Source of the DNA: Caenorhabditis elegans
Taxonomy: Eukaryota; Nematoda; Chromadorea; Rhabditida; Rhabditidae
Direction of reading: 5' to 3'
Assembly (NCBI RefSeq): GCF_000002985.6
Contig: NC_003279.8
Span: 10,168,001-10,232,000 of the forward strand
Length of the DNA: 64,000 nucleotides
Positions within the stretch are counted from its first letter, which is position 1; each line of letters opens with the position of its first letter. Of the stretch, positions 30,286 to 54,897 are shown in pieces. The notes below the pieces were generated by a model that ran no database searches, was not told the origin of the DNA, and was given only the letters and a program-made list of their open reading frames with translations. The position numbers and the translations under genes were made by a program.

Positions 30286-31907
30286 TCAACTCGTCTGCTC
30301 AACCGATTCATTCGTCAAAGTTGTATCTCCAGATTTCACGGATTGTAAGTCGACTGCAGAAAGACACAAAATCTTCTTTTTATTGAATCTCACCGTTTTC
30401 TCGTTGAATAACTAAAATCATTATGTTAGGTGACAATCATAAGGTTCAGATAAACTTACCACATTAAAGTACGGATGAGTGAGAATCTCAATTCCAGAGA
30501 GACGCTTGTTCGGATTGTAGACAAGGATTTGAAGAAGAACTGCTACTGACTCTTTCATGTCATCTTGCTCAATTTTCTGAAAAACAACTCTCTGGAGGTT
30601 TTCTTAAAGCTTTTTGCCTGAAACCGATTTGATTCCACATGCGCCTTATCGTTTGGTGCCTACTCTGTGCCTATCTTGTACCTAGCTTGTGCCGCGCAAT
30701 CAATAACAGACTAGTGGTACATCAAATCGGTTTCAAATGTTAAGATGGTTCCGAATGTAGCACTTAAAACCGGTCGCTGATGAAAATTGTCTGAATTTTC
30801 AATGAACTCGTTCTTCGTATAATAATTACCGTATTATAGACTGTAGTTCTCCGATCCTTCTGATAAATGACTGTCTGTGTGTAGAGATAAGTCAAGTCGG
30901 CAGTTGTCTTCGATTTATTATATTCATATGAATCCAAAACTTCCTGCAACTTCGTGCTGCTCACTTTCATTGATGACACATCAGAATCTGTTGGGTATCC
31001 GAGCATATCGAAAATGACCTCCGCTTGATTGTTCGATGATTTTCCAGCCAAGATGATTCCGCCTTTCAGTAGCTCTCCAAATACACATCCGCAAGACCAC
31101 GTGTCTGAAAAATTATATTCTAGCAAAAAACTCCAAGACTTGCTCAAGGTAACTAATAGTAAACTTGGGCTTAGTAAGAATTCACCAACAAGCATCTAAC
31201 AAAATTATCAGATAATTTGAATATTTTTTCAGAATTTTCTTACCAATTTTGCATCCATAGTACTTGGAGCCTAAAATCAATTCTGGTGGTCTGTAGTATC
31301 TCGTGACATGATAACTTTGCTGTGGTGATTTTGTAGATTGGATGGACGATGAGCCAAAATCAGATATTTTCAGCAGACCTGTTTCGGCGTTGTAGAGTAG
31401 ATTTTGAGGCTTGATGTCTCTGTGACAAATGTCAGCCTTAAAATTCCAGATTGAATGGGAGACATATTCAAAAAAATAACTGCACCTTCTCCAAATGTGC
31501 TTGTCCTCGAAACAATTGCCAGACAATAAGCTTCACTTCTACAATGTCAATCCGGCGGTTTTTGTCTTTTAGAAACTGATAAAGATTCAATGGAATGTAC
31601 TCGAAAATCAGAGCAAGACAAATACGACCTGAATATTTGTAATTTGCTTATTATTCTATCAACTAAGCGTGCTCACACCTTCATGTTGTTTCTGATAGCT
31701 GTACAACAAACGAACAATATTCCGATGCTTCAACTTTCCCAACTGTCCAAGAATCTTCACTTCCATTGGACATCCTTTGTGACGCGGCCAGGTCTTTTTG
31801 ATCACAATATCGATTTCCTGATTGGATTCTGTTTGAGCAACTCCACGGTAGACATTGGAAAATGCTCCAGTAGCAAACAGATTCATATGATGAAGATTGA
31901 GATGCAT
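30286..31907 (-). CDS. GSK3-family serine/threonine kinase
   Basis: Six exons (31907-31679, 31628-31486, 31436-31244, 31104-30830, 30576-30460, 30411-30286) give 360 aa. Kinase motifs in order: glycine loop 'GAFSNVYRG', lysine in 'DIVIKKTW', helix C region 'PMEVKILGQLGKLKHRNIV', catalytic 'CHRDIKPQNLLY', 'KISDFGSSS', and the GSK3-type activation loop 'SYHVTRYYRPPELILG' with the tandem tyrosine. 'DTWSCGCVFGELL' and 'ILTHPYFN' complete the lobe. All catalytic residues are present. It lacks long N- and C-terminal extensions and is more diverged than the canonical worm GSK-3, matching the nematode-expanded GSK3-like group often expressed in the male germ line (expression is inference). I believe this is Y106G6E.1. 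The ATG directly follows a TTTCAG acceptor. Confidence 0.88.
30619..30736. mobile_element. Short MITE-like inverted repeat in a kinase intron
   Basis: TGAAACCGATTTGAT at 30619-30633 and ATCAAATCGGTTTCA at 30721-30735 are perfect 15-bp inverted repeats around about 87 bp rich in 'gtgcctat/gtacctag' words. Non-coding, inside the intron 30577-30829. Confidence 0.65.
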
Positions 31908-31910: not shown

Positions 31911-33057
31911 AAAAATTCAAATGTTCCGATGAAGTTGCAAGAAACTTGAAGCTCTTTCACACTTTTTTTGTAATGTTTCCATCAATAGGTTAATTGTACT
32001 GAGGCATTATGCGCACATGACACAGTTACCTACCGACTACTAGACAGTTTTTGATTTTCAAAAATTCAATGTTCCTAATATGATCATTTGATCACAAGAT
32101 CTCGGCATTTGCGCATTAACTTGTCCAAATTGTTCAGAAGTTGGCAAACGAGTAATTGGGCAAGACTTGGCCCAATCTGTTCCTAGCGTGAAACTTGACT
32201 TATGTCGTTTTGGCAGTGATTCTCAAGGATCGGATCAAACTTGGGCCATCAAGTCTTGCCAAACTTTTGCTCAAGCTTTGCCAATTTCCAAGCCAAATGC
32301 ATATTTTAATATCCAACTTGGGCAAGGAGTTGTCACGCAAACTGTAGACAAGAAGCTGTCAAATTCCCGTCAAATACATCTTTTCCATCCTCCAATCGTT
32401 GAGCGACAATTTCATCAGTAGTTCTATAGATGTTTGGCATTTTTTTTTATTTCGATTCTTCTCAAGCCCTTTTGCAAGCAAATTGTGAGCTCGTATTCAA
32501 ATTGAGTTTTTAACAAGTAGAAATGAATTGTTCAGAATTGAAACTATTGAATCAAAATTTTAACGAGCATCAGTGTTTGGCGTGTCCCACTTTTTTTGTT
32601 GGCCTCTGCAAACTTGTTGATTGGTCGATTCTGAAATAATAAAAAATAAAATATAAAAAATATAAAAACCCTGAAGATTCTACGTTAGATAAGAAAATAA
32701 AAAAACAATCACAAACTCGTCGATAAATTCAGTTTCGAATTTACGAAGGACGAATTCATCCCTTTTCATCTTCAGACACGTGTCACATTGACTGGTGAGT
32801 TTTAAATTTCAGATGCTTGCTTTTGAAGTAGTAGAGTGGGATTGCTAGCCTGTTGACTGAACTTGCACATCTAGAAGAATTCACTCTCAAAATTTGGGAG
32901 AAAACTTTCTGCCACACATTTCCAACTTGCCAACTTATTTGAGCAGATTTTAGTAAAACTCCAAATTTTTGGCAGAAAGTTTCCAACGTTTGGTAAGAGG
33001 TTGCCCCAAAACGTCGCCAGTTTTTATTACTGTGAAACAAAAATAATATTGTTTCAG
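31911..33057. other. Intergenic region with several short inverted repeats
   Basis: No gene assembles. Two inverted repeats stand out: 'gggcaagacttggcccaa' near 32159 against 'ttgggccatcaagtcttgcc' near 32244, and 'gggagaaaactttctgcca' near 32896 against 'tggcagaaagtttcc' near 32970. Both look like remnants of small foldback elements. The region should also hold the promoters of the kinase (-) and the following plus-strand gene. Confidence 0.55.
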
Positions 33058-33091
33058 ATTGGAATCAACAAAAAGTCAGCACCAAAAACCA

Positions 33092-33808
33092 ATGATCGTG
33101 TACGCCCTACTGGCAATTGTCGCTGTTCTGGCCTACTTCTACTTCAAGAACAGTGAGAATGGCAAGAATGCAACGACATCTCAAAGAAGTTCAAGAAGCA
33201 CTCGTTCCACAAAAAGCTCGAGATCATCTCCGAAGACTGTGCCTGTTACTGAACAGCCTGCAGCTGCTCAACCTCAACAACTCGAACAACCGACCCCTGC
33301 ACCTGCTCCGGAATCTGCTCCTGCTCCAGTTCAATGCCCGGAACCAACTCCTGAAGTCCCTCAGCAACCAACACAAGTGTCCGCTCCAGTTCAAGAAATC
33401 ACTCAAGGTGCTCCTGCTCCAATCCCCGAGCCAACTCCAGTCACTGCAGAACAGCCAACTCCAGTTGATCCTTTGAGCTCTCCAATTAAACCAATTGGTA
33501 GAGACTCTGTATTGTTGGCGCCGAAGGACAATGTTCATGCAGGAATTGGTGGAAAATCCGAGAGGATGGCTCCAACTGAGAATGCTTCTGGAGGTGGAAA
33601 CTCGGTTATTTTGGGCCCAAAGGATAATACTTCCAATGGTGTTGGTGGAAAATCGGAGAGATTGGCTGTGGATTCTGGACCTGCTTCATCTGATCAATCA
33701 TCTTCTGCTCCTGCTTCTACCGAATCGAAGAAATCCCACACCCCTGGACCACACTATTCGAACATTTTGGCCAATTTTAACCTCACTAAGCAGGCTGGAG
33801 GCCTGTGA
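33092..33808 (+). CDS. Unknown single-pass membrane protein with Pro/Ala-rich stalk and internal repeat
   Basis: An acceptor TTTCAG ends at 33057; the first ATG downstream is at 33092 and gives 238 aa to TGA at 33806-33808 without introns. It opens with a signal-anchor helix (MIVYALLAIVAVLAYFYF). A Ser/Arg/Lys patch follows, then a long Pro/Ala/Glu/Gln-rich low-complexity stalk. Near the C-terminus there are two copies of a roughly 30-residue unit: 'DSVLLAPKDNVHAGIGGKSE' and 'NSVILGPKDNTSNGVGGKSE'. Codon periodicity and the repeated unit argue for real coding. I do not recognise the family. The last 24 codons lie inside copy 1 of the direct duplication that recurs at 52.0 kb. Confidence 0.65.
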   Translation: MIVYALLAIVAVLAYFYFKNSENGKNATTSQRSSRSTRSTKSSRSSPKTVPVTEQPAAAQPQQLEQPTPAPAPESAPAPVQCPEPTPEVPQQPTQVSAPVQEITQGAPAPIPEPTPVTAEQPTPVDPLSSPIKPIGRDSVLLAPKDNVHAGIGGKSERMAPTENASGGGNSVILGPKDNTSNGVGGKSERLAVDSGPASSDQSSSAPASTESKKSHTPGPHYSNILANFNLTKQAGGL

Positions 33809-34208
33809 TGCTATTGTATTTACCTCAAACCCAAAAATCAGGGATTAGAGCCGCCCTCTTACTCTTAGAAACTTTGAGTCACTTGCATCCCTACTCCCAG
33901 CAGAGCAGACCGGAAGCCTTCTATGAGACGTATGTTTCTATAACTACGTCTGTTTTTGGAAAGAACAGTCAATCCGGATTGAGGGCCGCAGGCCCGAATA
34001 CACATAGAAGTGTTGGACAATCGTTGAACCTACTCTAAGCCCAATAAATCAGGTTGAGGGCCGCAGGCCCGAATACACTTAAAAAAGACCCAGAAAAAAA
34101 ATTATCTTCAAATGACCATGGCTCAGTCAATTTTGGTTCAAAATGATCCAAAATTTCCCCAGTTTACCAACTTAATTTACTGCGAAGCCTAGCGCGTTTG
34201 ACGCGCTA
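33735..34208. repeat. Direct duplication, copy 1 (left border of the array block)
   Basis: The sequence from 'cacacccctggacc' (33738) to 'gacgcgctagtca' (34200-34212) recurs at 52000-52456 in the same orientation at roughly 85-90% identity by eye. It starts within the coding end of the upstream gene. It is rich in short triloop or near-perfect palindromes: AATCCGGATT at 33971, GGGCCGCAGGCCC at 33983 and again at 34058, and TAGCGCG/CGCGCTA at 34190-34208. Confidence 0.85.
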
Positions 34209-35240
34209 GTCACTCCCACTATTCAAATGTCTTGTGATGTTCATTTTCAAACTTTTTTTCAGTTTCGATGTTGCTAAACGCTTCCTAAATTAAGTTTATC
34301 CAAGAGTATTTGCATATCAGGCCGTCGGCCTGCTTGGTTAAAGGTTGACTGCGTCTTCTAAGAATAAGAGTGCCTACGGCACTCAATCCAGACAATCTGG
34401 GCTTGAAACAGTTGTAATAGGCATACCAGGCCTCCGACATGCGATGTATATGTTTAAAGTGGACTGAATATTCTTAGAGTTAGAGTGGGACCTTTCTATG
34501 TTTTTTTGTGAAGAAAACAATTTACAGCCACCTGCACGCATGCACCCTCTTGTGAGGAGAAGCGTCCTGTGAGGAGTGGTGCACTAAAACTTCAATCCGT
34601 CATAACTTTGCCCAGAGTGGGAGTTTGAGAAAAATAGAACTATTTTTGAAATTGGCATAAACAGTAAAGGACTATGGCGTTAATTATTTCAAAACATAAC
34701 AAAAACTGAAACATTTCATCTTTTGGGAAGGGCTGCAGCTCAAAACATCTCTAAGTGTGCTGTTAGTTTAGTTTGTTAACCTTTCTTTAGTAAAAATTAT
34801 TAAATTTAAAACATAATTTGGAAGAATAGTTGAGAACTGGTTCAGGAACAGAAAACCACTGAATTTTTAAGGGCAAAAATTAAATACAAAAAATGTTCCA
34901 CAAATATTTTGATAGTTATGAAAGGATCCAGGTGAGAAAAAAGTTCAAGTCGGAGCTTTGAATGCATATCCTTTGCGCTGACACTCTCCGAAACAACTGG
35001 TTTAATCTGAATTATAGCCCGAAATGGTACGCCCAAATTGAAACAAAGTTTAAAAATGAATATAATGAGACATTTCATAAAAGTGAGGTCGCGGGGAAAA
35101 TAGTAAACTCGATGAAATTTAAATTTAAAGGAAAGTTCAATCACGTTCTAAAAATGTTATCCTAAAAAAGTATAAACGATCTTTATAAAAAAATCGTGAC
35201 CGCCTAATCCAATAACCTCACTTAACTCCGCCCACCCACC
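34209..35240. other. Non-coding stretch with further palindromes
   Basis: Three more perfect short palindromes follow copy 1: CAGGCCgtcGGCCTG at 34318-34332, AGTGCCtacGGCACT at 34369-34383 and CCAGAcaaTCTGG at 34388-34400. They are of the same style as those in the duplication, so the parent element may extend to about 34450. The rest is AT-rich with no gene. Confidence 0.5.
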
Positions 35241-35252
35241 CCAGCTGCAATA

Positions 35253-35791
35253 TAAAAGGCGGGAAAACAGTATAAAATTCAGTCCGAGGTTTTGGAAACC
35301 TCTCATCTTCTGTCATGGTCAATGGTGGATACCAATGGTGGATTCGATAGGCAAGACAATGGTTGGCAACATGGAACTGCAGTGAGCAGGGATCAGTGGA
35401 GACCAGTGAGGAGAGGTGTGCTGAGGGAAGACAAGGATGCATTGGAAAGACCTGGCTGAGCAAGTGGATTGGTCGAAGCAGGCAGCCGAGGATGGAGCAC
35501 TCAAGGAAAAACCAGGTACACATGTTTGAAAATTCGCAAGTTGAAAAAGTTCACCTTAAACTTCAAATTTCAAAATTTGAAAAACATTTTTGTTTTCTTA
35601 AAATTAATATTTTTTATTTGATTCAATATAATATTTTTTCAGAATTTGTGGTCGATTCAATTGGCGGGACACTGATGGACAGCATGGAGCAGCAGGGATC
35701 AGCAGGGACCAGTGTGGTTGGATGGAGCTGGCGGAGGACGTGAAATGAAGGGAGCAGGCTGCCAAAGATGGAGCACCAAAGGAGGAGCCAG
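35253..35791 (+). pseudogene. Decayed gene with a duplicated exon module
   Basis: A TATA-like box (TATAAAAGG) is at 35252-35260. Two related modules follow: A, about 35335-35515, and B, 35643-35791. Each ends in a good splice donor (CCAG|GTACAC, CCAG|GTATAT), and B starts after TTTTTTCAG. Translated, A and B share 'QHGTAVSRDQ' / 'QHGAAGISRDQ' and 'LAEQVDWSKQAAEDGALKEKP' (split) / 'LAEDVK-stop-REQAAKDGAPKEEP'. Module A needs a frameshift to join its two conserved parts; B has an in-frame TGA. The introns after A and B are also similar, so exon plus intron was duplicated. I know no family for it. It could instead be a live gene with different exon ends. Confidence 0.45.
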
Positions 35792-35880
35792 GTATATACA
35801 AAAATCAAAGTTTACTTGAAAAATTGCAAGTTTAACTTCAAATTTTAAAATTTAGAAACAAAAAATAATCATTTGAATTA

Positions 35881-36105
35881 AATGATTCAAACACTTTTTT
35901 TCAAAAAATTCAAAAAAAATGCATGTTTCAAATACCAACGGCAATTTAAAAAAAGGATTTTCGTATTGATGAGTGGAAGTTTTAAATTTTATTCAACTTC
36001 ACTTTTTTGAACTTCACTTTTTTGATTCAATACAAAATCTTTTTTTTTCAAAAACTCAAAAAAAAATTGCCTGTTTCAAATACCAACGGCAAATAAAAAA
36101 AGGAT
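35881..36105. repeat. Short direct repeat at the left edge of the array
   Basis: About 80 bp at 35881-35960 ('tgtttcaaataccaacggca', then 'aaaaaaaggatttt') is repeated at 36023-36105 just before the first array unit. The second copy runs straight into the satellite through 'ggatttttgttaaaag'. Confidence 0.75.
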
Positions 36106-39100
36106 TTTTGTTAAAAGAAAACCATTGCCAACTGAATAGGTTGATTTGTGTTTTCTTTCTGAAATTCTAAGAATTTTGGTAAAAGAAAACCATTGTCAAC
36201 TGAATAGGTTGATTTGTGTTTTCTTTCTGAAATTCTAAGAATTTTGTTAAAAGAAAACCATTGTCAACTGAATAGGTTATTTGTGTTTTCTTTCTGAAAT
36301 TCTAAGAATTTTGGTAAAAGAAAACCATTGTCAACTGAATAGGTTGATTTGTGTTTTCTTTCTGAAATTCTAAGAATTTTGTTAAAAGAAAACCATTGTC
36401 AACTGAATAGGTTGATTTGTGTTTTCTTTCTGAAATTCTAAGAATTTTGGTAAAAGAAAACCATTGTCAACTGAATAGGTTGATTTGTGTTTTCTTTCTG
36501 AAATTCTAAGAATTTTGGTAAAAGAAAACCATTGTCAACTGAATAGGTTGATTTGTGTTTTCTTTCTGAAATTCTAAGAATTTTGGTAAAAGAAAACCAT
36601 TGTCAACTGAATAGGTTGATTTGTGTTTTCTTTAAAATTTTAAAAAATTTGGTAAAAGAAAACCATTGTCAACTGAATAGGTTGATTTGTGTTTTCTTTC
36701 TGAAATTCTAAGAATTTTGTTAAAAGAAAACCATTGTCAACTGAATAGGTTGATTTGTGTTTTCTTTAAAATTTTACAAAATTTGGTAAAAGAAAACCAT
36801 TGTCAACTGAATAGGTTGATTTGTGTTTTCTTTCTGAAATTCTAAGAATTTTGGTAAAAGAAAACCATTGTCAACTGAATAGGTTGATTTGTGTTTTCTT
36901 TAAAATTTTAAAAAATTTGGTAAAAGAAAACCATTGTCAACTGAATAGGTTGATTTGTGTTTTCTTTCTGAAATTCTAAGAATTTTGGTAAAAGAAAACC
37001 ATTGTCAACTGAATAGGTTGATTTATGTTTTCTTTCTGAAATTCTAAGAATTTTGTTAAAAGAAAACCATTGTCAACTGAATAGGTTGATTTGTGTTTTC
37101 TTTCTGAAATTCTAAGAATTTTGGTAAAAGAAAACCATTGTCAACTGAATAGGTTGATTTGTGTTTTCTTTCTGAAATTCTAAGAATTTTGGTAAAAGAA
37201 AACCATTGTCAACTGAATAGGTTGATTTGTGTTTTCTTTCTGAAATTCTAAGAATTTTGTTAAAAGAAACCATTGTCAACTGAATAGGTTGATTTGTGTT
37301 TTCTTTCTGAAATTCTAAGAATTTTGGTAAAAGAAAACCATTGTCAACTGAATAGGTTGATTTGTGTTTTCTTTAAAATTTTACAAAATTTGTTAAAAGA
37401 AAACCATTGTCAACTGAATAGGTGATTTGTGTTTTCTTTCTGAAATTCTAAGAATTTTGTCAAAAGAAACATTGTCAACTGAATAGGTTGATTGTGTTTT
37501 CTTTCTGAAATTCTAAGAACTTTGTTAAAAGAAAACCATTGTCAACTGAATAGGTTGATTTGTGTTTTCTTTAAAATTTTACAAAATTTGGTAAAAGAAA
37601 ACCATTGTCAACTGAATAGGTTGATTTGTGTTTTCTTTCTGAAATTCTAAGAATTTTGTTAAAAGAAAACCATTGTCAACTGAATAGGTTGATTTGTGTT
37701 TTCTTTAAAATTTTAAAAAATTTGGTAAAAGAAAACCATTGTCAACTGAATAGGTTGATTTGTGTTTTCTTTCTGAAATTCTAAGAATTTTGTTAAAAGA
37801 AAACCATTGTCAACTGAATAGGTTGATTTGTGTTTTCTTTAAAATTTTAAAAAATTTGGTAAAAGAAAACCATTGTCAACTGAATAGGTTGATTTGTGTT
37901 TTCTTTAAAATTTTAAAAAATTTGGTAAAAGAAAACCATTGTCAACTGAATAGGTTGATTTGTGTTTTCTTTCTGAAATTCTAAGAATTTTGTTAAAAGA
38001 AAACCATTGTCAACTGAATAGGTTGATTTGTGTTTTCTTTAAAATTTTAAAAAATTTGGTAAAAGAAAACCATTGTCAACTGAATAGGTTGATTTGTGTT
38101 TTCTTTAAAATTTTACGGAATTTGTTAAAAAAAAACCATTGTCGACTGGGGAGGTTGATTTGTGTTTTCTTTCTGAAATTCTAAGAATTTTGTTAAAAGA
38201 AACCATTGTCAACTGAATAGGTTGATTTGTGTTTTCTTTCTGAAATTCTAAGAATTTTGGTAAAAGAAAACCATTGTCAACTGAATAGGTTGATTTGTGT
38301 TTTCTTTAAAATTTTACAAAATTTGTTAAAAGAAAACCATTGTCAACTGAATAGGTTGATTTGTGTTTTCTTTCTGAAATTCTAAGAATTTTGGTAAAAG
38401 AAAACCATTGTCAACTGAATAGGTTGATTTGTGTTTTCTTTCTGAAATTCTAAGAATTTTGGTAAAAGAAAACCATTGTCAACTGAATAGGTTGATTTGT
38501 GTTTTCTTTCTGAAATTCTAAGAATTTTGGTAAAAGAAAACCATTGTCAACTGAATAGGTTGATTTGTGTTTTCTTTAAAATTTTACAAAATTTGTTAAA
38601 AGAAAACCATTGTCAACTGAATAGGTTGATTTGTGTTTTCTTTCTGAAATTCTAAGAATTTTGTTAAAAGAAAACCATTGTCAACTGAATAGGTTGATTT
38701 GTGTTTTCTTTCTGAAATTCTAAGAATTTTGGTAAAAGAAAACCATTGTCAACTGAATAGGTTGATTTGTGTTTTCTTTCTGAAATTCTAAGAATTTTGG
38801 TAAAAGAAAACCATTGTCAACTGAATAGGTTGATTTGTGTTTTCTTTAAAATTTTACAAAATTTGGTAAAAGAAAACCATTGTCAACTGAATAGGTTGAT
38901 TTGTGTTTTCTTTCTGAAATTCTAAGAATTTTGGTAAAAGAAAACCATTGTCAACTGAATAGGTTGATTTGTGTTTTCTTTAAAATTTTACAAAATTTGT
39001 TAAAAGAAAACCATTGTCAACTGAATAGGTTGATTTGTGTTTTCTTTCTGAAATTCTAAGAATTTTGGTAAAAGAAAACCATTGTCAACTGAATAGGTTG

Positions 39101-42100
39101 ATTTGTGTTTTCTTTCTGAAATTCTAAGAATTTTGGTAAAAGAAAACCATTGTCAACTGAATAGGTTGATTTGTGTTTTCTTTAAAATTTTAAAAAAATT
39201 TGGTAAAAGAAAACCATTGTCAACTGAATAGGTTGATTTGTGTTTTCTTTAAAATTTTAAAAAATTTGGTAAAAGAAAACCATTGTCAACTGAATAGGTT
39301 GATTTGTGTTTTCTTTAAAATTTTACAAAATTTGGTAAAAGAAAACCATTGTCAACTGAATAGGTTGATTTGTGTTTTCTTTAAAATTTTACAAAATTTG
39401 GTAAAAGAAAACCATTGTCTACTGAATAGGTTGATTTGTGTGTTCTTTAAAATTTTACAAAATTTGGTAAAAGACAACCATTGTCAACTGAATAGGTTGA
39501 TTTGTGTGTTCTTTAAAATTTTACAAAATTTGGTAAAAGACAACCATTGTCAACTGAATAGGTTGATTTGTGTTGTCTTCTAAATTTTAAAAAATTTGGT
39601 AAAAGAAAACCATTGTCAACTGAATAGGTTGATTTGTGTTTTCTTTAAAATTTTAAAAAATTTGGTAAAAGAAAACCATTGTCAACTGAATAGGTTGATT
39701 TGTGTTTTCTTTAAAATTTTAAAAAAATTTGGTAAAAGAAAACCATTGTCAACTGAATAGGTTGATTTGTGTTTTCTTTCTGAAATTCTAAGAATTTTGT
39801 TAAAAGAAAACCATTGTCAACTGAATAGGTTGATTTGTGTTTTCTTTCTGAAATTCTAAGAATTTTGGTAAAAGAAAACCATTGTCAACTGAATAGGTTG
39901 ATTTGTGTTTTCTTTCTGAAATTCTGACACCTTTGTTAAAACAAAACCATTGTCAACTGAATAGGTTGATTTGTGTTTTCTTTCTGAAATTCTAACAATT
40001 TTGGTAAAACAAAACCATTGTCAACTGAATAGGTTGATTTGTGTTTTCTTTAAAATTTTACAAAATTTGGTAAAAGAAAACCATTGTCAACTGAATAGGT
40101 TGATTTGTGTTTTCTTTCTGAAATTCTAAGAATTTTGGTAAAAGAAAACCATTGTCAACTGAATAGGTTGATTTGTGTTTTCTTTAAAATTTTACAAAAT
40201 TTGTAAAAAGAAAACCATTGTCAACTGAATAGGTTGATTTGTGTTTTCTTTAAAATTTTACAAAATTTGGTAAAAGAAAACCATTGTCAACTGAATAGGT
40301 TGATTTGTGTTTTCTTTCTGAAATTCTAAGAATTTTGTTAAAAGAAAACCATTGTCAACTGAATAGGTTGATTTGTGTTTTCTTTCTGAAATTCTAAGAA
40401 TTTTGGTAAAAGAAAACCATTGTCAACTGAATAGGTTGATTTGTGTTTTCTTTAAAATTTTACAAAATTTGGTAAAAGAAAACCATTGTCAACTGAATAG
40501 GTTGATTTGTGTTTTCTTTAAAATTTTACAAAATTTGGTAAAAGAAAACCATTGTCAACTGAATAGGTTGATTTGTGTTTTCTTTCTGAAATTCTAAGAA
40601 TTTTGGTAAAAGAAAACCATTGTCAACTGAATAGGTTGATTTGTGTTTTCTTTAAAATTTTAAAAAATTTGGTAAAAGAAAACCATTGTCAACTGAATAG
40701 GTTGATTTGTGTTTTCTTTCTGAAATTCTAAGAATTTTGTTAAAAGAAAACCATTGTCAACTGAATAGGTTGATTTGTGTTTTCTTTAAAATTTTACAAA
40801 ATTTGGTAAAAGAAAACCATTGTCAACTGAATAGGTTGATTTGTGTTTTCTTTCTGAAATTCTAAGAATTTTGGTAAAAGAAAACCATTGTCAACTGAAT
40901 AGGTTGATTTGTGTTTTCTTTCTGAAATTCTAAGAATTTTGGTAAAAGAAAACCATTGTCAACTGAATAGGTTGATTTGTGTTTTCTTTCTGAAATTCTA
41001 AGAATTTTGGTAAAAGAAAACCATTGTCAACTGAATAGGTTGATTTGTGTTTTCTTTCTGAAATTCTAAGAATTTTGTTAAAAGAAAACCATTGTCAACT
41101 GAATAGGTTGATTTGTGTTTTCTTTCTGAAATTCTAAGAATTTTGGTAAAAGAAAACCATTGTCAACTGAATAGGTTGATTTGTGTTTTCTTTCTGAAAT
41201 TCTAAGAATTTTGGTAAAAGAAAACCATTGTCAACTGAATAGGTTGATTTGTGTTTTCTTTCTGAAATTCTAAGAATTTTGTTAAAAGAAAACCATTGTC
41301 AACTGAATAGGTTGATTTGTGTTTTCTTTAAAATTTTACAAAATTTGGTAAAAGAAAACCATTGTCAACTGAATAGGTTGATTTGTGTTTTCTTTCTGAA
41401 ATTCTAAGAATTTTGGTAAAAAAAAACCATTGTCAACTGAATAGGTTGATTTATGTTTTCTTTCTGAAATTCTAAGAATTTTGGTAAAAGAAAACCATTG
41501 TCAACTGAATAGGTTGATTTGTGTTTTCTTTCTGAAATTCTAAGAATTTTGGTAAAAGAAAACCATTGTCAACTGAATAGGTTGATTTATGTTTTCTTTC
41601 TGAAATTCTAAGAATTTTGTTAAAAGAAAACCATTGTCAACTGAATAGGTTGATTTGTGTTTTCTTTCTGAAATTCTAAGAATTTTGGTAAAAGAAAACC
41701 ATTGTCAACTGAATAGGTTGATTTATGTTTTCTTTCTGAAATTCTAAGAATTTTGTTAAAAGAAAACCATTGTCAACTGAATAGGTTGATTTATGTTTTC
41801 TTTCTGAAATTCTAAGAATTTGTTAAAAGAAAACCATTGTCAACTGAATAGGTTGATTTGTGTTTTCTTTCTGAAATTCTAAGAATTTTGGTAAAAGAAA
41901 ACCATTGTCAACTGAATAGGTTGATTTATGTTTTCTTTCTGAAATTCTAAGAATTTTGTTAAAAGAAAACCATTGTCAACTGAATAGGTGGATTTATGTT
42001 TTCTTTCTGAAATTCTAAGAATTTTGGTAAAAGAAAACCATTGTCAACTGAATAGGTTGATTTATGTTTTCTTTCTGAAATTCTAAGAATTTTGTTAAAA

Positions 42101-45100
42101 GAAAACCATTGTCAACTGAATAGGTTGATTTGTGTTTTCTTTCTGAAATTCTAAGAATTTTGTTAAAAGAAAACCATTGTCAACTGAATAGGTTGATTTG
42201 TGTTTTCTTTCTGAAATTCTAAGAATTTTGGTAAAAGAAAACCATTGTCAACTGAATAGGTTGATTTATGTTTTCTTTCTGAAATTCTAAGAATTTTGTT
42301 AAAAGAAAACCATTGTCAACTGAATAGGTTGATTTATGTTTTCTTTCTGAAATTCTAAGAATTTTGTTAAAAGAAAACCATTGTCAACTGAATAGGTTGA
42401 TTTATGTTTTCTTTCTGAAATTCTAAGAATTTTGGTAAAAGAAAACCATTGTCAACTGAATAGGTTGATTTGTGTTTTCTTTCTGAAATTCTAAGAATTT
42501 TGTTAAAAGAAAACCATTGTCAACTGAATAGGTTGATTTGTGTTTTCTTTCTGAAATTCTAAGAATTTTGGTAAAAGAAAACCATTGTCAACTGAATAGG
42601 TTGATTTGTGTTTTCTTTAAAATTTTTAAAAATTTGGTAAAAGAAAACCATTGTCAACTGAATAGGTTGATTTATGTTTTCTTTCTGAAATTCTAAGAAT
42701 TTTGTTAAAAGAAAACCATTGTCAACTGAATAGGTTGATTTATGTTTTCTTTCTGAAATTCTAAGAATTTTGGTAAAAGAAAACCATTGTCAACTGAATA
42801 GGTTGATTTATGTTTTCTTTCTGAAATTCTAAGAATTTTGTTAAAAGAAAACCATTGTCAACTGAATAGGTTGATTTATGTTTTCTTTCTGAAATTCTAA
42901 GAATTTTGTTAAAAGAAAACCATTGTCAACTGAATAGGTTGATTTGTGTTTTCTTTAAAATTTTACAAAATTTGTTAAAAGAAAACCATTGTCAACTGAA
43001 TAGGTTGATTTGTGTTTTCTTTCTGAAATTCTAAGAATTTTGGTAAAAGAAAACCATTGTCAACTGAATAGGTTGATTTGTGTTTTCTTTAAAATTTTAA
43101 AAAATTTGGTAAAAGAAAACCATTGTCAACTGAATAGGTTGATTTGTGTTTTCTTTAAAATTTTACAAAATTTGGTAAAAGAAAACCATTGTCAACTGAA
43201 TAGGTTGATTTATGTTTTCTTTCTGAAATTCTAAGAATTTTGTTAAAAGAAAACCATTGTCAACTGAATAGGTTGATTTATGTTTTCTTTCTGAAATTCT
43301 AAGAATTTTGTTAAAAGAAAACCATTGTCAACTGAATAGGTTGATTTATGTTTTCTTTCTGAAATTCTAAGAATTTTGGTAAAAGAAAACCATTGTCAAC
43401 TGAATAGGTTGATTTATGTTTTCTTTCTGAAATTCTAAGAATTTTGGTAAAAGAAAACCATTGTCAACTGAATAGGTTGATTTGTGTTTTCTTTCTGAAA
43501 TTCTAAGAATTTTGTTAAAAGAAAACCATTGTCAACTGAATAGGTTGATTTGTGTTTTCTTTAAAATTTTAAAAAATTTGGTAAAAGAAAACCATTGTCA
43601 ACTGAATAGGTTGATTTGTGTTTTCTTTAAAATTTTAAAAAATTTGGTAAAAGAAAACCATTGTCAACTGAATAGGTTGATTTGTGTTTTCTTTCTGAAA
43701 TTCTAAGAATTTTGGTAAAAGAAAACCATTGTCAACTGAATAGGTTGATTTGTGTTTTCTTTCTGAAATTCTAAGAATTTTGTTAAAAGAAAACCATTGT
43801 CAACTGAATAGGTTGATTTGTGTTTTCTTTCTGAAATTCTAAGAATTTTGGTAAAAGAAAACCATTGTCAACTGAATAGGTTGATTTATGTTTTCTTTCT
43901 GAAATTCTAAGAATTTTGTTAAAAGAAAACCATTGTCAACTGAATAGGTTGATTTATGTTTTCTTTCTGAAATTCTAAGAATTTTGGTAAAAGAAAACCA
44001 TTGTCAACTGAATAGGTTGATTTATGTTTTCTTTCTGAAATTCTAAGAATTTTGTTAAAAGAAAACCATTGTCAACTGAATAGGTTGATTTATGTTTTCT
44101 TTCTGAAATTCTAAGAATTTTGGTAAAAGAAAACCATTGTCAACTGAATAGGTTGATTTATGTTTTCTTTCTGAAATTCTAAGAATTTTGTTAAAAGAAA
44201 ACCATTGTCAACTGAATAGGTTGATTTATGTTTTCTTTCTGAAATTCTAAGAATTTTGTTAAAAGAAAACCATTGTCAACTGAATAGGTTGATTTATGTT
44301 TTCTTTCTGAAATTCTAAGAATTTTGGTAAAAGAAAACCATTGTCAACTGAATAGGTTGATTTGTGTTTTCTTTCTGAAATTCTAAGAATTTTGTTAAAA
44401 GAAAACCATTGTCAACTGAATAGGTTGATTTGTGTTTTCTTTAAAATTTTACAAAATTTGTTAAAAGAAAACCATTGTCAACTGAATAGGTTGATTTGTG
44501 TTTTCTTTCTGAAATTCTAAGAATTTTGGTAAAAGAAAACCATTGTCAACTGAATAGGTTGATTTGTGTTTTCTTTCTGAAATTCTAAGAATTTTGGTAA
44601 AAGAAAACCATTGTCAACTGAATAGGTTGATTTGTGTTTTCTTTAAAATTTTAAAAAATTTGGTAAAAGAAAACCATTGTCAACTGAATAGGTTGATTTG
44701 TGTTTTCTTTCTGAAATTCTAAGAATTTTGGTAAAAGAAAACCATTGTCAACTGAATAGGTTGATTTGTGTTTTCTTTAAAATTTTACAAAATTTGTTAA
44801 AAGAAAACCATTGTCAACTGAATAGGTTGATTTGTGTTTTCTTTCTGAAATTCTAAGAATTTTGTTAAAAGAAAACCATTGTCAACTGAATAGGTTGATT
44901 TGTGTTTTCTTTCTGAAATTCTAAGAATTTTGGTAAAAGAAAACCATTGTCAACTGAATAGGTTGATTTGTGTTTTCTTTCTGAAATTCTAAGAATTTTG
45001 TTAAAAGAAAACCATTGTCAACTGAATAGGTTGATTTGTGTTTTCTTTCTGAAATTCTAAGAATTTTGGTAAAAGAAAACCATTGTCAACTGAATAGGTT

Positions 45101-48100
45101 GATTTGTGTTTTCTTTCTGAAATTCTAAGAATTTTGTTAAAAGAAAACCATTGTCAACTGAATAGGTTGATTTGTGTTTTCTTTCTGAAATTCTAAGAAT
45201 TTTGTTAAAAGAAAACCATTGTCAACTGAATAGGTTGATTTGTGTTTTCTTTAAAATTTTAAAAAATTTGGTAAAAGAAAACCATTGTCAACTGAATAGG
45301 TTGATTTGTGTTTTCTTTCTGAAATTCTAAGAATTTTGTTAAAAGAAAACCATTGTCAACTGAATAGGTTGATTTGTGTTTTCTTTCTGAAATTCTAAGA
45401 ATTTTGGTAAAAGAAAACCATTGTCAACTGAATAGGTTGATTTGTGTTTTCTTTAAAATTTTAAAAAATTTGGTAAAAGAAAACCATTGTCAACTGAATA
45501 GGTTGATTTGTGTTTTCTTTCTGAAATTCTAAGAATTTTGGTAAAAGAAAACCATTGTCAACTGAATAGGTTGATTTGTGTTTTCTTTCTGAAATTCTAA
45601 GAACTTTGTTAAAAGAAAACCATTGTCAACTGAATAGGTTGATTTGTGTTTTCTTTCTGAAATTCTAAGAACTTTGTTAAAAGAAAACCATTGTCAACTG
45701 AATAGGTTGATTTGTGTTTTCTTTCTGAAATTCTAAGAACTTTGTTAAAAGAAAACCATTGTCAACTGAATAGGTTGATTTGTGTTTTCTTTCTGAAATT
45801 CTAAGAACTTTGTTAAAAGAAAACCATTGTCAACTGAATAGGTTGATTTGTGTTTTCTTTAAAATTTTAAAAAATTTGGTAAAAGAAAACCATTGTCAAC
45901 TGAATAGGTTGATTTGTGTTTTCTTTCTGAAATTCTAAGAATTTTGGTAAAAGAAAACCATTGTCAACTGAATAGGTTGATTTGTGTTTTCTTTCTGAAA
46001 TTCTAAGAACTTTGTTAAAAGAAAACCATTGTCAACTGAATAGGTTGATTTGTGTTTTCTTTCTGAAATTCTAAGAACTTTGTTAAAAGAAAACCATTGT
46101 CAACTGAATAGGTTGATTTGTGTTTTCTTTCTGAAATTCTAAGAACTTTGTTAAAAGAAAACCATTGTCAACTGAATAGGTTGATTTGTGTTTTCTTTCT
46201 GAAATTCTAAGAACTTTGTTAAAAGAAAACCATTGTCAACTGAATAGGTTGATTTGTGTTTTCTTTAAAATTTTAAAAAATTTGGTAAAAGAAAACCATT
46301 GTCAACTGAATAGGTTGATTTGTGTTTTCTTTCTGAAATTCTAAGAATTTTGTTAAAAGAAAACCATTGTCAACTGAATAGGTTGATTTGTGTTTTCTTT
46401 AAAATTTTAAAAAATTTGGTAAAAGAAAACCATTGTCAACTGAATAGGTTGATTTGTGTTTTCTTTAAAATTTTAAAAAATTTGGTAAAAGAAAACCATT
46501 GTCAACTGAATAGGTTGATTTGTGTTTTCTTTCTGAAATTCTAAGAATTTTGTTAAAAGAAAACCATTGTCAACTGAATAGGTTGATTTGTGTTTTCTTT
46601 AAAATTTTAAAAAATTTGGTAAAAGAAAACCATTGTCAACTGAATAGGTTGATTTGTGTTTTCTTTCTGAAATTCTAAGAATTTTGTTAAAAGAAAACCA
46701 TTGTCAACTGAATAGGTTGATTTGTGTTTTCTTTAAAATTTTAAAAAATTTGGTAAAAGAAAACCATTGTCAACTGAATAGGTTGATTTGTGTTTTCTTT
46801 AAAATTTTAAAAAATTTGGTAAAAGAAAACCATTGTCAACTGAATAGGTTGATTTGTGTTTTCTTTCTGAAATTCTAAGAATTTTGGTAAAAGAAAACCA
46901 TTGTCAACTGAATAGGTTGATTTGTGTTTTCTTTCTGAAATTCTAAGAATTTTGGTAAAAGAAAACCATTGTCAACTGAATAGGTTGATGTGTGTTCTCT
47001 TTAAAATTTTAAAAAATTTGGTAAAAGAAAACCATTGTCAACTGAATAGGTTGATTTGTGTTTTCTTTCTGAAATTCTAAGAATTTTGGTAAAAGAAAAC
47101 CATTGTCAACTGAATAGGTTGATGTGTGTTTTCTTTAAAATTTTACAAAATTTGGTAAAAGAAAACCATTGTCAACTGAATAGGTTGATTTGTGTTTTCT
47201 TTCTGAAATTCTAAGAATTTTGGTAAAAGAAAACCATTGTCAACTGAATAGGTTGATTTGTGTTTTCTTTAAAATTTTACAAAATTTGGTAAAAGAAAAC
47301 CATTGTCAACTGAATAGGTTGATTTGTGTTTTCTTTCTGAAATTCTAAGAATTTTGGTAAAAGAAAACCATTGTCAACTGAATAGGTTGATTTGTGTTTT
47401 CTTTAAAATTTTACAAAATTTGGTAAAAGAAAACCATTGTCAACTGAATAGGTTGATTTGTGTTTTCTTTCTGAAATTCTAAGAATTTTGTTAAAAGAAA
47501 ACCATTGTCAACTGAATAGGTTGATTTGTGTTTTCTTTAAAATTTTAAAAAATTTGGTAAAAGAAAACCATTGTCAACTGAATAGGTTGATTTGTGTTTT
47601 CTTTCTGAAATTCTAAGAATTTTGTTAAAAGAAAACCATTGTCAACTGAATAGGTTGATTTGTGTTTTCTTTAAAATTTTACAAAATTTGGTAAAAGAAA
47701 ACCATTGTCAACTGAATAGGTTGATTTGTGTTTTCTTTAAAATTTTACAAAATTTGGTAAAAGAAAACCATTGTCAACTGAATAGGTTGATTTGTGTTTT
47801 CTTTAAAATTTTAAAAAATTTGGTAAAAGAAAACCATTGTCAACTGAATAGGTTGATTTGTGTTTTCTTTAAAATTTTAAAAAATTTGGTAAAAGAAAAC
47901 CATTGTCAACTGAATAGGTTGATTTGTGTTTTCTTTAAAATTTTAAAAAATTTGGTAAAAGAAAACCATTGTCAACTGAATAGGTTGATTTGTGTTTTCT
48001 TTAAAATTTTAAAAAATTTGGTAAAAGAAAACCATTGTCAACTGAATAGGTTGATTTGTGTTTTCTTTCTGAAATTCTAAGAATTTTGGTAAAAGAAAAC

Positions 48101-51100
48101 CATTGTCAACTGAATAGGTTGATTTGTGTTTTCTTTCTGAAATTCTAAGAATTTTGGTAAAAGAAAACCATTGTCAACTGAATAGGTTGATTTATGTTTT
48201 CTTTCTGAAATTCTAAGAATTTTGTTAAAAGAACACCATTGTCAACTGAATAGGTTGATTTATGTTTTCTTTCTGAAATTCTAAGAATTTTGTTAAAAGA
48301 AAACCATTGTCAACTGAATAGGTTGATTTGTGTTTTCTTTAAAATTTTAAAAAATTTGGTGAAAGAAAACCATTGTCAACTGAATAGGTTGATTTGTGTT
48401 TTCTTTAAAATTTTACAAAATTTGGTAAAAGAAAACCATTGTCAACTGAATAGGTTGATTTGTGTTTTCTTTCTGAAATTCTAAGAATTTTGGTAAAAGA
48501 AAACCATTGTCAACTGAATAGGTTGATTTATGTTTTCTTTCTGAAATTCTAAGAATTTTGTTAAAAGAAAACCATTGTCAACTGAATAGGTTGATTTATG
48601 TTTTCTTTCTGAAATTCTAAGAATTTTGGTAAAAGAAAACCATTGTCAACTGAATAGGTTGATTTATGTTTTCTTTCTGAAATTCTAAGAATTTTGTTAA
48701 AAGAAAACCATTGTCAACTGAATAGGTTGATTTGTGTTTTCTTTAAAATTTTACAAAATTTGGTAAAAGAAAACCATTGTCAACTGAATAGGTTGATTTG
48801 TGTTTTCTTTAAAATTTTACAAAATTTGGTAAAAGAAAACCATTGTCAACTGAATAGGTTGATTTGTGTTTTCTTTAAAATTTTACAAAATTTGGTAAAA
48901 GAAAACCATTGTCAACTGAATAGGTTGATTTGTGTTTTCTTTCTGAAATTCTAAGAATTTTGGTAAAAGAAAACCATTGTCAACTGAATAGGTTGATTTG
49001 TGTTTTCTTTAAAATTTTAAAAAATTTGGTAAAAGAAAACCATTGTCAACTGAATAGGTTGATTTGTGTTTTCTTTAAAATTTTACAAAATTTGGTAAAA
49101 GAAAACCATTGTCAACTGAATAGGTTGATTTGTGTTTTCTTTCTGAAATTCTAAGAATTTTGTTAAAAGAAAACCATTGTCAACTGAATAGGTTGATTTG
49201 TGTTTTCTTTAAAATTTTAAAAAATTTGGTAAAAGAAAACCATTGTCAACTGAATAGGTTGATTTGTGTTTTCTTTCTGAAATTCTAAGAATTTTGTTAA
49301 AAGAAAACCATTGTCAACTGAATAGGTTGATTTGTGTTTTCTTTAAAATTTTACAAAATTTGTTAAAAGAAAACCATTGTCAACTGAATAGGTTGATTTG
49401 TGTTTTCTTTCTGAAATTCTAAGAATTTTGTTAAAAGAAAACCATTGTCAACTGAATAGGTTGATTTGTGTTTTCTTTCTGAAATTCTAAGAATTTTGGT
49501 AAAAGAAAACCATTGTCAACTGAATAGGTTGATTTGTGTTTTCTTTCTGAAATTCTAAGAATTTTGTTAAAAGAAAACCATTGTCAACTGAATAGGTTGA
49601 TTTGTGTTTTCTTTCTGAAATTCTAAGAATTTTGTTAAAAGAAAACCATTGTCAACTGAATAGGTTGATTTATGTTTTCTTTCTGAAATTCTAAGAATTT
49701 TGGTAAAAGAAAACCATTGTCAACTGAATAGGTTGATTTGTGTTTTCTTTCTGAAATTCTAAGAATTTTGTTAAAAGAAAACCATTGTCAACTGAATAGG
49801 TTGATTTGTGTTTTCTTTCTGAAATTCTAAGAATTTTGTTAAAAGAAAACCATTGTCAACTGAATAGGTTGATTTGTGTTTTCTTTAAAATTTTACAAAA
49901 TTTGGTAAAAGAAAACCATTGTCAACTGAATAGGTTGATTTGTGTTTTCTTTCTGAAATTCTAAGAATTTTGTTAAAAGAAAACCATTGTCAACTGAATA
50001 GGTTGATTTGTGTTTTCTTTTTGAAATTCTAAGAATTTTGGTAAAAGAAAACCATTGTCAACTGAATAGGTTGATTTGTGTTTTCTTTAAAATTTTACAA
50101 AATTTGGTAAAAGAAAACCATTGTCAACTGAATAGGTTGATTTGTGTTTTCTTTAAAATTTTACAAAATTTGGTAAAAGAAAACCATTGTCAACTGAATA
50201 GGTTGATTTGTGTTTTCTTTCTGAAATTCTAAGAATTTTGGTAAAAGAAAACCATTGTCAACTGAATAGGTTGATTTGTGTTTTCTTTAAAATTTTAAAA
50301 AATTTGGTAAAAGAAAACCATTGTCAACTGAATAGGTTGATTTGTGTTTTCTTTCTGAAATTCTAAGAATTTTGTTAAAAGAAAACCATTGTCAACTGAA
50401 TAGGTTGATTTGTGTTTTCTTTAAAATTTTACAAAATTTGGTAAAAGAAAACCATTGTCAACTGAATAGGTTGATTTGTGTTTTCTTTCTGAAATTCTAA
50501 GAATTTTGGTAAAAGAAAACCATTGTCAACTGAATAGGTTGATTTGTGTTTTCTTTCTGAAATTCTAAGAATTTTGGTAAAAGAAAACCATTGTCAACTG
50601 AATAGGTTGATTTGTGTTTTCTTTAAAATTTTACAAAATTTGGTAAAAGAAAACCATTGTCAACTGAATAGGTTGATTTGTGTTTTCTTTCTGAAATTCT
50701 AAGAATTTTGTTAAAAGAAAACCATTGTCAACTGAATAGGTTGATTTGTGTTTTCTTTCTGAAATTCTAAGAATTTTGGTAAAAGAAAACCATTGTCAAC
50801 TGAATAGGTTGATTTGTGTTTTCTTTAAAATTTTACAAAATTTGGTAAAAGAAAACCATTGTCAACTGAATAGGTTGATTTGTGTTTTCTTTCTGAAATT
50901 CTAAGAATTTTGTTAAAAGAAAACCATTGTCAACTGAATAGGTTGATTTGTGTTTTCTTTCTGAAATTCTAAGAATTTTGGTAAAAGAAAACCATTGTCA
51001 ACTGAATAGGTTGATTTGTGTTTTCTTTCTGAAATTCTAAGAATTTTGTTAAAAGAAAACCATTGTCAACTGAATAGGTTGATTTGTGTTTTCTTTAAAA

Positions 51101-51226
51101 TTTTTAAAAATTTGGTAAAAGAAAACCATTGTCAACTGAATAGGTTGATTTGTGTTTTCTTTAAAATTTTTAAAAATTTGGTAAAAGAAAACCATTGTCA
51201 ACTGAATAGGTTGATTTGGGTTTTCT
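36106..51226. repeat. Tandem satellite array, about 15 kb of mixed 68-bp and 66-bp units
   Basis: Every unit shares 'aaaaccattgtcaactgaat' followed by 'aggttgatttgtgttttctt'. Two core types alternate irregularly: type A (68 bp) has CTGAAATTCTAAGAATTTT, type B (66 bp) has AAAATTTTAAAAAATTT or AAAATTTTACAAAATTT. Length divided by unit size gives about 225 copies. Further variants are TTTTGG versus TTTTGT before 'taaaag', GATTTATG for GATTTGTG (type A only, clustered at 41.4-44.3 and 48.2-48.7 kb), and AAGAACTTT for AAGAATTTT (two blocks of four, 45.6-46.2 kb). Units are nearly identical, which indicates recent or ongoing homogenisation. Edge units are slightly diverged ('ccattgccaactg' on the left, 'gatttgggttttctgcc' on the right). 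Open frames inside are an effect of the 66-bp period. Confidence 0.97.
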
Positions 51227-51821
51227 GCCTCTTCCTATATTAAATCCTGAAATTGCATTCTTGACAGAAATAAAAAATAACTGCAACTTTTCGACACGTG
51301 AGTGTCCGACAAAAATGTACAAACTTTGAGCTTTAATAACTTGGCTCATAGCTGGCGCTTTTGCATTCACTAAGTGCGAATGACTCAAAAATAGTTGCCC
51401 CACCATGGTCATTATTGAGGGGATTGGTTTGGGAAGGGTAGAACACTGATTTGCGCGGGTTTCTGGAGACCGCGAAAATTGAATATTTTCTTTGTACTGA
51501 AGAGTTTTATATTTTTCAATTCCATACGAGCAGTTTTTCTGACATTTAGTTCCAATTTGAGCACAAGAGAGAACTTCGAATTACCAATTTTTTGAAACTA
51601 TTTTGAAAAAATTGACCAACTTTCCAAATGTAGGCCATCATTCAAATTTTGCAAAATTAAAAATGTGGATTAAACGTGAAAAACTTTCCTACCACTCCCT
51701 CTCTCTCTATTTTGGGGATGAATTCGATCATTTTCATTTCTTATTTTTATAACGTGAGGAGAATTTAATTTTTAAGATATTTCGAGATTTCTACTTTTTT
51801 CTAATCCTATTGAAAATCGCA
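51227..51821. other. Unique AT-rich sequence right of the array
   Basis: No gene is supported. A 'ccctctctctctatttt' pyrimidine tract lies near 51696-51712. The short minus-strand frame crossing the array edge has no coding character. Confidence 0.5.
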
Positions 51822-52009
51822 CCAGGGGTGTGCGGCAAATTTGCCAAAATTGCCGAGCTCGGCAATTTTTGAACTTTGCCGCACACGTAAAAAATTTGGC
51901 AGTGCAATTTTGACAAAAACTATTGGTCTACAAAAATTTTGTAAAATGGCACAAAATTGAGTTATAGTGATGGTTAATCAAAATTTTGAGATTTGCCGCA
52001 CACCCCTGG
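51822..52009. mobile_element. MITE with perfect 19-bp terminal inverted repeats
   Basis: CCAGGGGTGTGCGGCAAAT at 51822-51840 is exactly reverse-complementary to ATTTGCCGCACACCCCTGG at 51991-52009. The interior has the palindrome TTGCCGAGCTCGGCAA near 51850 and further 'gccgcacac' words. Non-coding. Its right end overlaps the start of duplication copy 2 through the shared word CACACCCCTGGACC. Confidence 0.85.
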
Positions 52010-52456
52010 ACCGCACTATTCGAAACTTTTAACCTCACTTCCAGCTGGGCAGGCCGGAGGCCTGCGATGCTATTGTATTTCGCTCAAACCCAAAAATCAG
52101 GGATTAGGGCCGCCTTCTTACTCTTAGAAACTTTAAGTCATTTCTATCCCTACTCCCAGCAGAGCAGGCCGGAGGCCTCCTATGAGACTACGTCTGTTTT
52201 TGGAAAGGCCAGTTAATCCGGATTGAGGGCCGCAGGCCCGAATACACATAGAAGTGTTGGACAATCGTTAAACCTACTCTAAGCCCAATAAATCAGGATG
52301 AGTGCCGCAGGCCCGAACACACTTAAACAAGACCCAGAAAAAATATTATCTTCAAATGGCCATGGCTCAGTCAATTTTGGTTAAAAAAGATCCAAATTTT
52401 CCCCAGTTTACCAACTTAATCTACTGCGAAGCCTGGCGCGCTTGACGCGCTAGTCA
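52000..52456. repeat. Direct duplication, copy 2 (right border of the array block)
   Basis: Same sequence and orientation as 33738-34212. In this copy several palindromes are perfect where copy 1 is not: CAGGCCggaGGCCTG at 52050-52064 and AGGCCggaGGCCT at 52166-52178. GGGCCGCAGGCCC is kept at about 52226-52238. The coding end of the upstream gene is shifted and shortened here, so this copy is not functional as that exon. Confidence 0.85.
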
Positions 52457-53789: not shown

Positions 53790-54778
53790 TTAAATAGTAT
53801 CAAAAATAATAGTTTCTCCTTCATAGATAACCTCATCAAGTTCAACATCAGTTTCAGAAATAGGAATTGTACCAATAATTTGCTCACGAAGAGCCAATCC
53901 TATCTTTTTTGGGGAGTTTTCTGGAAAATGTTTGTGATGAGTGGAGAAGAAGCGATCGTAATATCCTTTTCCATGACCACAACGAAGTCCATATGGTGAG
54001 AAGGCAACGCCGGGTGCAAGGATCAAATCCAGTGGTCCTGTAAGTACTTATAAATTGGAGTTATATTATTAAAAAGCAGTCACACCTGTTTCATGATAGC
54101 TTTGCCATTTCCATTTCGGTTCTGGCTGTCTGATTCCCCAAAGTGTTGAAGGAAGATTGTCAAAAGCAGTTTGATCCGGAACTCGAACCATATCCATTGC
54201 AGTTGAGCCCTTCGTGAACTGAAATTTTTACATTTGTGACTTCAATAAATTATACTTGCTGTACGTGCCTGTCTCCCTGGATTCATATATAATATCTGCC
54301 TAGGTACTAATTGCCTGCCTACTACAAACGATTACAGCCTTCATGTCTAGGGGCCTACTTTACGCCTACCTCGCAAGTGCCTTAGTTCTGCCTGGCTACG
54401 TGCCTGCCTGCCTTTATTCATAGCTCATATCTGCCTACTTCTTGTCGGCCTACCTGCTTTATTTCTGCCTGCCTATGTGCCTACCTACATGCCTACATCT
54501 TAACATCTATTGCGCATCTGTTTCAAAATAAATTTTACCTGTGGAATGAAAACTTCTTTTCCCATTTCCAACGCTTTTTGAATAATCGAATCAGTTTGTA
54601 TTTCTCCCGATGTACTAACATAAACTGACAATCTCTTGCTCTCTTGAAACCATTTCGATTCAATTATTTTTTCAAAAACCGCCTCTGTTTGACGTTGAGT
54701 TTCTTCTTTCGAAATTTTTCCGAGCAATGTCTTCATAAACTGCCTGAGCTCTGATTTTACCTCTTTTATAGCACTCAT
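53790..54778 (-). CDS. 5-formyltetrahydrofolate cyclo-ligase (MTHFS)
   Basis: Three exons (54778-54539, 54218-54086, 54037-53790) give 206 aa, close to the usual length of about 200. N-terminal 'EVKSELRQFMK' and 'SKRLSVYVSTSGEIQT' precede 'KEVFIPQ'. The family signature 'PGVAFSPYGLRCGHGKGYYDR' (in parts: LAPGVAF, RCGHGKGYYDRF) binds ATP and substrate. The enzyme converts 5-formyl-THF to 5,10-methenyl-THF with ATP, in cytosolic one-carbon metabolism. The ATG directly follows a TTTTCAG acceptor at 54779, 194 nt downstream of the ced-12 stop and about 120 nt after the ced-12 poly(A) signal. That is the standard spacing for SL2 trans-splicing, so it is probably the second gene of an operon. I believe it is Y106G6E.4. 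Confidence 0.93.
54245..54505. repeat. Degenerate tandem repeat of TGCCTAC/TGCCTGCC words in a cyclo-ligase intron
   Basis: Intron 1 contains about 25 copies of 'tgcctac', 'tgcctgcc' and 'gcctacct' variants separated by a few bases. Similar 'gtgcctac' words occur in the kinase intron at 30.65 kb. It is a low-complexity element with strand bias. Confidence 0.7.
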
Positions 54779-54897
54779 CTGAAAATGTTGGTCAAAAATT
54801 TGTTTTCAAGAGATTCAGAAAACTGTTAGTGGCCTGTAGTTAATGGCTCGTTATTCAAATTAAGTTAAATACACAGTAATAGGCATAAATTACAAAA

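Follow-up and report, generated by a model that had tools for sequence, protein, structure and literature searches.

A known 15-kb satellite on chromosome I of Caenorhabditis elegans has two kinds of unit and shares its flank with arrays at other loci

The long tandem array near 10.20 Mb of C. elegans chromosome I is a known satellite whose seed probably moved together with transposon-like debris and then grew by local duplication, without acquiring a sequence-specific function. We analysed it in a window of 64,000 nucleotides (NC_003279.8, positions 10,168,001 to 10,232,000, forward strand), to which coordinates without a chromosome refer. The array itself is already known; our additions are the two lineages of its units, a probable reason for the specificity of a published FISH probe, the sister loci and a shared flank, none of which we found in print in the open-licence literature.

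Based on TRF (mismatch 5), the array is a single tandem block of 224.8 copies with a period of 68 (or 134) and 94% matches, placed at 10204106-10219226 of chromosome I. An anchor search returned 225 units at spacings of 68 (n = 140), 66 (n = 76), 67 (n = 7) and 65 bases (n = 1). The two methods agree with each other and with an earlier note on this DNA, made from its letters, which had described one array of ~15 kb with ~225 units of two kinds, 68 and 66 bp long. The following features of the array are used below:

36106-51226, plus strand: 68/66-bp satellite array of ~225 units (TRF, anchor search, position in Table 1 of PMC4595182)
37206-40217, plus strand: stretch in which 11 of the 21 singletons lie, several of them with odd bases in clusters (unit typing)
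40420-40955, plus strand: eight-unit word that recurs 143 units later, at 50055 (unit-word search)
45421-46233, plus strand: six-unit block present twice in tandem, ~406 bp each (self-comparison of unit types)

Classing of the units one by one, which the note had proposed alongside a repeat finder, gave ~146 A and ~78 B units. A first classifier called 146 A (68 bp), 77 B (66 bp) and 2 unclassed cores (n = 225), and a second called 145 A, 78 B and 1 unclassed (n = 224 full units). The part that does not vary between the kinds comes to ~49 bp (68 minus 19, or 66 minus 17) rather than the 45 bp first proposed. The full units fell into 31 sequence types, with 203 of the 224 belonging to types seen at least twice and the other 21 being singletons, 13 of which lay in the first third of the array (binomial p 0.009). 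The cluster of singletons at 37206-40217 is perhaps low-quality reference sequence. We also considered a gene within the array and rejected it: B units hold the reading frame, with ORFs of at most 164 aa, and A units break it.

Adjacent units were of unlike class in 45.7% of pairs, which matches the expectation for a random order at the observed A and B frequencies, so that a strict dimer is absent. Stretches of consecutive A units or consecutive B units also occurred, and unit order and self-comparison together ruled out both a strict dimer and a higher-order repeat. The earlier statements that the order of A and B is irregular and that the array did not grow from one AB dimer are therefore upheld. 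At short range, unit types were clustered: 19.9% of pairs at lags 1 to 6 were of the same type (mean of the six lags) compared to 13.6% after shuffling, a value reached by 0 of 2,000 shuffles, with lags 4 and 6 unexceptional when taken alone (337 and 206 of 2,000 shuffles). Agreement in A/B class was elevated at lag 2 (3 of 2,000 shuffles) and lag 19 (11 of 2,000), uncorrected for the 20 lags examined. The strongest self-match was the tandem pair of six-unit blocks (score 18.7, a level found in none of 100 global shuffles and in 2 of 100 local ones), which is evidence of multi-unit duplication. An eight-unit word was reached by 0 of 200 global shuffles and a seven-unit word by 5 of 200. Because the order of units in the Sanger reference could be wrong, part of this clustering may be an assembly effect.

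The variants inside the units were unevenly divided between the two kinds. At the second variable site, 32 of the 146 A units and none of the 78 B units carried TTTATG (Fisher p 3.7e-7), and the GTTAAA linker occurred in 72 of 146 A units versus 9 of 78 B units. Since TTTATG is tied to the core, A and B propagate mostly as whole units, that is, as two lineages whose cores are seldom exchanged. The earlier picture of a mosaic of swapped cores thus holds for the two interleaved kinds but not for frequent shuffling of cores between them.

Subirana, Alba and Messeguer catalogued this satellite in 2015. Table 1 of their paper (PMC4595182) lists a satellite at I:10204118 of 15,081 bp, with a unit of 68 and 223 repeats, which agrees with the array in the window in position, length, unit size and number. 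It ranks sixth by length among the 27 satellites of that table, the heading of which presents them as species-specific, so the array is not new, and the view of the earlier note that so long a block is unusual is not supported. In the outline, abstract, Results and early Discussion of that paper, neither the two kinds of unit nor the sister arrays nor the common flank are mentioned. A text search of the open-licence literature with three pieces of the unit, on one strand, led to a second paper (PMC9258534, published in 2022), in which the coordinates of FISH target I-1 in the long-read VC2010 assembly are 10374806-10387363. The complete I-1 motif given there is identical to the 68-bp TRF consensus of our array, which likewise lies on chromosome I and forms the single major cluster. 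According to the same paper, FISH gave a signal at chromosome I in N2/VC2010, and in the Hawaiian strain CB4856 the signal of probe I-1 was reliable and that of I-2 was not, with the data not shown there. The array is real, published and serviceable as a marker of chromosome I.

Related units occur at three other loci. Genome-wide, the 22-base anchor (with up to 3 mismatches) matched at 303 sites (225 forward, 78 reverse), of which 224 fall in the window, 24 in the array at I:9.82 Mb, 49 in that at IV:17.06 Mb and 4 in that at IV:5.27 Mb, with 2 unplaced; the three sister arrays are all on the minus strand. The array at IV:17.06 Mb consists of B units only (48 full units), the one at I:9.82 Mb mixes 6 A with 17 B among its 23 full units, and the one at IV:5.27 Mb holds 2 B and 1 A as full units. 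Identical unit types were shared between the window and I:9.82 Mb (two) and between the window and IV:17.06 Mb (one). Because the arrays at I:9.82 and IV:5.27 Mb are mixed, the A/B dimorphism is probably older than the large array. The A core (up to 2 mismatches) had 158 matches genome-wide, 145 of them in the window, 6 at I:9.82 Mb, 1 at IV:5.27 Mb and 0 at IV:17.06 Mb, with 6 unplaced. The FISH oligo I-1 spans the A core only, and the window has 143 exact sites for it, compared to 2 at I:9.82 Mb, 1 at IV:5.27 Mb and none at IV:17.06 Mb. The A-specificity of the oligo, combined with the B-only array at IV:17.06 Mb, probably explains why probe I-1 lights up a single locus.

The array in the window is bordered by three further segments, one of which, a repeat here called X, is present on both sides:

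33737-34212, plus strand: repeat X, partial copy (query positions 800-1257), with a hairpin and CTAG at the 3' end
34213-35028, plus strand: 'core', present at IV:17.06 Mb and absent from I:9.82 Mb (sequence comparison)
35029-36105, plus strand: 'arm', the left flank that recurs beside the arrays at I:9.82 and IV:17.06 Mb (blastn)
51224-52456, plus strand: repeat X, near-full copy, directly adjoining the last satellite unit

The arm is common to three of the four arrays. Compared with the window copy by blastn, the left flank reached 97.0% over 1,099 bp at I:9.82 Mb and 96.0% over 1,919 bp at IV:17.06 Mb, and the array at IV:5.27 Mb had no blastn match to the arm. Because three of the four arrays have this flank in common, the seed seems to have moved within a larger segment. 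At IV:17.06 Mb there is a second, inverted copy of the flank (93.6% over 1,196 bp) around a core, with no array on that side. In the window, the segment made of core, arm and array sits between the partial and the near-full copy of X, which has at least 13 other near-full copies, a count from 40 scored out of 461 candidates. Positions 34275-34887 of the core match a dispersed family of repeats, whose longer copies reach 77-80%, and 34225-34265 pairs with 35035-35075 as an imperfect inverted repeat of 41 bp (83%) at the ends of the core. The arm contains a TATA-like stretch and exon-like GA-rich blocks, both recognized by eye, and a ~147-bp tandem pair that adjoins the array.

Several observations were made alongside these comparisons. 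Within the arm, the TATA-like stretch followed by the GA-rich blocks occupies 35164-35860 and has a relative at I:4552871-4553271 (minus strand, 76-78%), with 35164-35506 matching I:4552923-4553271 at 76%; the arm and this relative are possibly a non-coding gene caught in a repeat. The element at IV:17.06 Mb (IV:17058442-17066761) has 196-bp direct repeats (97%) on both sides, and a 366-bp inverted repeat (94.5%) is found at IV:17058634-17058997. To the left of the array, a plus-strand ORF at 33047-33808 enters X at 33737, and X provides its last codons and its stop, a possible transposon-derived protein tail.

The surroundings of the sister array at I:9.82 Mb bear on how the segment moved. 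There, a 200-bp satellite halts near 9819731 and resumes near 9824074 in the same orientation with ~30 bp lost, as an insertion would leave, and its two parts are separated by repeats of 15, 20 and 11/123 bp, by the 66/68 array and by the arm. The interruption looks like one inserted block, or possibly the outcome of stepwise insertion. The region as a whole (I:9816830-9824412) is a nest of satellites, in which the interrupted 200-bp satellite is 98% alike.

Helitrons are marked by TC at the 5' end, a hairpin and a CTRR end at the 3' side, and insertion between A and T. Hairpins at the 3' ends of X and of the I:9.82 block were seen by eye, and by comparison with this motif two of the three loci sharing the arm appear to adjoin repeats with Helitron-like ends. 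X copies with an intact 5' end start with TC after varied bases, and in those with an intact 3' end CTAG is always followed by TC; at I:9.82 Mb, the outer 5' end of the block lacks TC. Neither the block nor X thus shows the combination of a 5' TC and insertion between A and T, and because the block lacks the 5' TC, a standard Helitron insertion is unsupported at I:9.82 Mb. For the arm-array segment, no whole element with matched ends and a target-site duplication was found at the three loci, and its three copies have different end points on both sides. The array at I:9.82 Mb adjoins repeats of 15 and 11 bp, which may be akin to the Helitron-associated satellite families of PMC4595182 (4_11, 5_15 and 7_40), and a 20-bp repeat that holds AGAANNTTCT, the motif given in that paper for family 7_40. 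In contrast, the 68/66-bp unit of the window is longer and falls outside the six Helitron families named there. A composite Helitron with the array as its passenger, formed by rolling-circle read-through from the X end at 34212 via core, arm and array to the X end at 52456, is also suggested by the Helitron-like block that interrupts the 200-bp satellite at I:9.82 Mb, but we regard it as unlikely. If true, Helitron read-through would seed long satellites at new loci, and local duplication would then enlarge them.

Eleven open stretches of the window were compared with Pfam, giving 6 matches above the cut-off, 1 below it only and 4 without a match:

27904-28227, minus strand: HLH (Pfam, above cut-off)
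30764-31195, minus strand: kinase (Pfam, below cut-off only)
31182-31529, minus strand: protein kinase (Pfam, above cut-off)
54503-54805 and 53790-54047, minus strand: 5-FTHF cyclo-ligase (Pfam, above cut-off)
56115-56720, minus strand: ELMO_ARM (Pfam, above cut-off)
61616-61813, minus strand: protein kinase (Pfam, above cut-off)

Because these matches flank it on both sides, the array lies between conserved genes, as the earlier note had said. At 10.2 of 15.07 Mb it presumably sits near the border of the central region of chromosome I, which makes the note's label of a chromosome arm doubtful. Elsewhere in the window, a minus-strand ORF of 738 aa at 19967-22183 carries Ser/Asp/Glu and Lys/Ala/Pro repeats with a DNA period of 93 bp, a composition that we take to resemble nucleolar phosphoproteins, and a long imperfect inverted repeat at 15991-16369 contains recurring 15-base units bearing AGATCT.

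Could the array be far shorter in the animal, or absent from it? The unit order of a Sanger assembly is not fully trustworthy, singletons are concentrated in the first third, and a comparison of satellites across three assemblies (PMC6210790) found that those above 4 kb mostly differ in length. Nonetheless, the long reads of VC2010 assemble I-1 as a span of 12.58 kb, FISH gives a signal for it in two strains (PMC9258534), including the Hawaiian one, and as to the presence and approximate size of the array an assembly artefact is therefore already contradicted; we consider it extremely improbable. The much shorter array in long reads that the earlier note had named as a sign of an artefact is not what the VC2010 figure gives, and its suggestion that assemblies under-represent the array runs against the same figure, which is 2.5 kb below the 15.1 kb of the reference. 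This gap, measured with TRF mismatch 7 in VC2010 and mismatch 5 here, may reflect a real difference in length, a fault in either assembly or a division of the array by the finder at mismatch 7. We saw no sign that the reference compresses the array. Of the 174 satellites longer than 4 kb that PMC6210790 counts in a Nanopore assembly, only 3 fell short of their reference length. The idea that a single AB dimer was amplified could draw on the TRF period of 134 bp, which scores the same as 68, and on the raised agreement at lag 2, but the random-like class switches and the runs of one kind already contradict it in the reference order, and we give it almost no credence.

Readings that assign the array a role fare little better. 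A centromere-like satellite would attract CENP-A and promote kinetochore formation on the holocentric chromosome, and in PMC4595182 the array scores 1.262 for CENP-A where the median is 0.922, all satellites above 7 kb with units above 40 bases are said to have high CENP-A affinity, and centromere-like satellites are proposed to act at the kinetochore. However, the section on these concerns units of 151-226 bp (above 150 bp, compared to 66-68 bp here), the same paper finds satellites uncorrelated with Steiner and Henikoff's 708 CENP-A positions, and a 2022 review (PMC9071541) states that repeats are not associated with CENP-A and that centromere activity depends little on sequence, all of which makes this role improbable. 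Alternatively, transcribed hairpin units might be a source of structured or double-stranded RNA, a regulatory satellite RNA with a promoter-like arm alongside. The 45 nt common to A and B do form an imperfect hairpin (z -4.33 with DNA parameters, 0 of 200 shuffles as good), and the TATA-like stretch and exon-like blocks of the arm, with their 76-78% relative at I:4.55 Mb, point into the array. But the swapped cores lack a convincing dyad, the fold of the A core being marginal (z -2.40, 12 of 200 shuffles) and that of the B core ordinary (z -0.58, 96 of 200), and the whole window held 0 Rfam families at the gathering threshold; we judge this reading very improbable. A palindrome kept by compensating change between the A and B cores was also rejected, as just a single pair differs and shuffled sequences fold as well as the B core. 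Subirana and colleagues suggested that palindromes may favour satellite expansion (PMC4595182), and for the shared hairpin we claim no more than that it may help slippage.

The account that we favour is that of a mobile seed followed by local growth. A short seed with both kinds of unit would have travelled with the ~1.1-kb arm, in transposon-like debris, to a few loci and, at I:10.20 Mb, between two copies of X, would have expanded to ~225 units. We infer that growth proceeded by repeated local duplication, chiefly of blocks of a few units and through unequal exchange or replication slippage, while the share of A units would have climbed to two thirds at this locus. Most likely the array is selectively unimportant satellite DNA for which a function is unlikely, and as a member of its class it would be expected to be silenced by H3K9me2, a mark that a 2018 review (PMC5788517) associates with satellite repeats and with part of the DNA transposons. 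With a seed that would have moved before it grew locally, the shared flank offers a case for following the birth of a satellite in a model animal.
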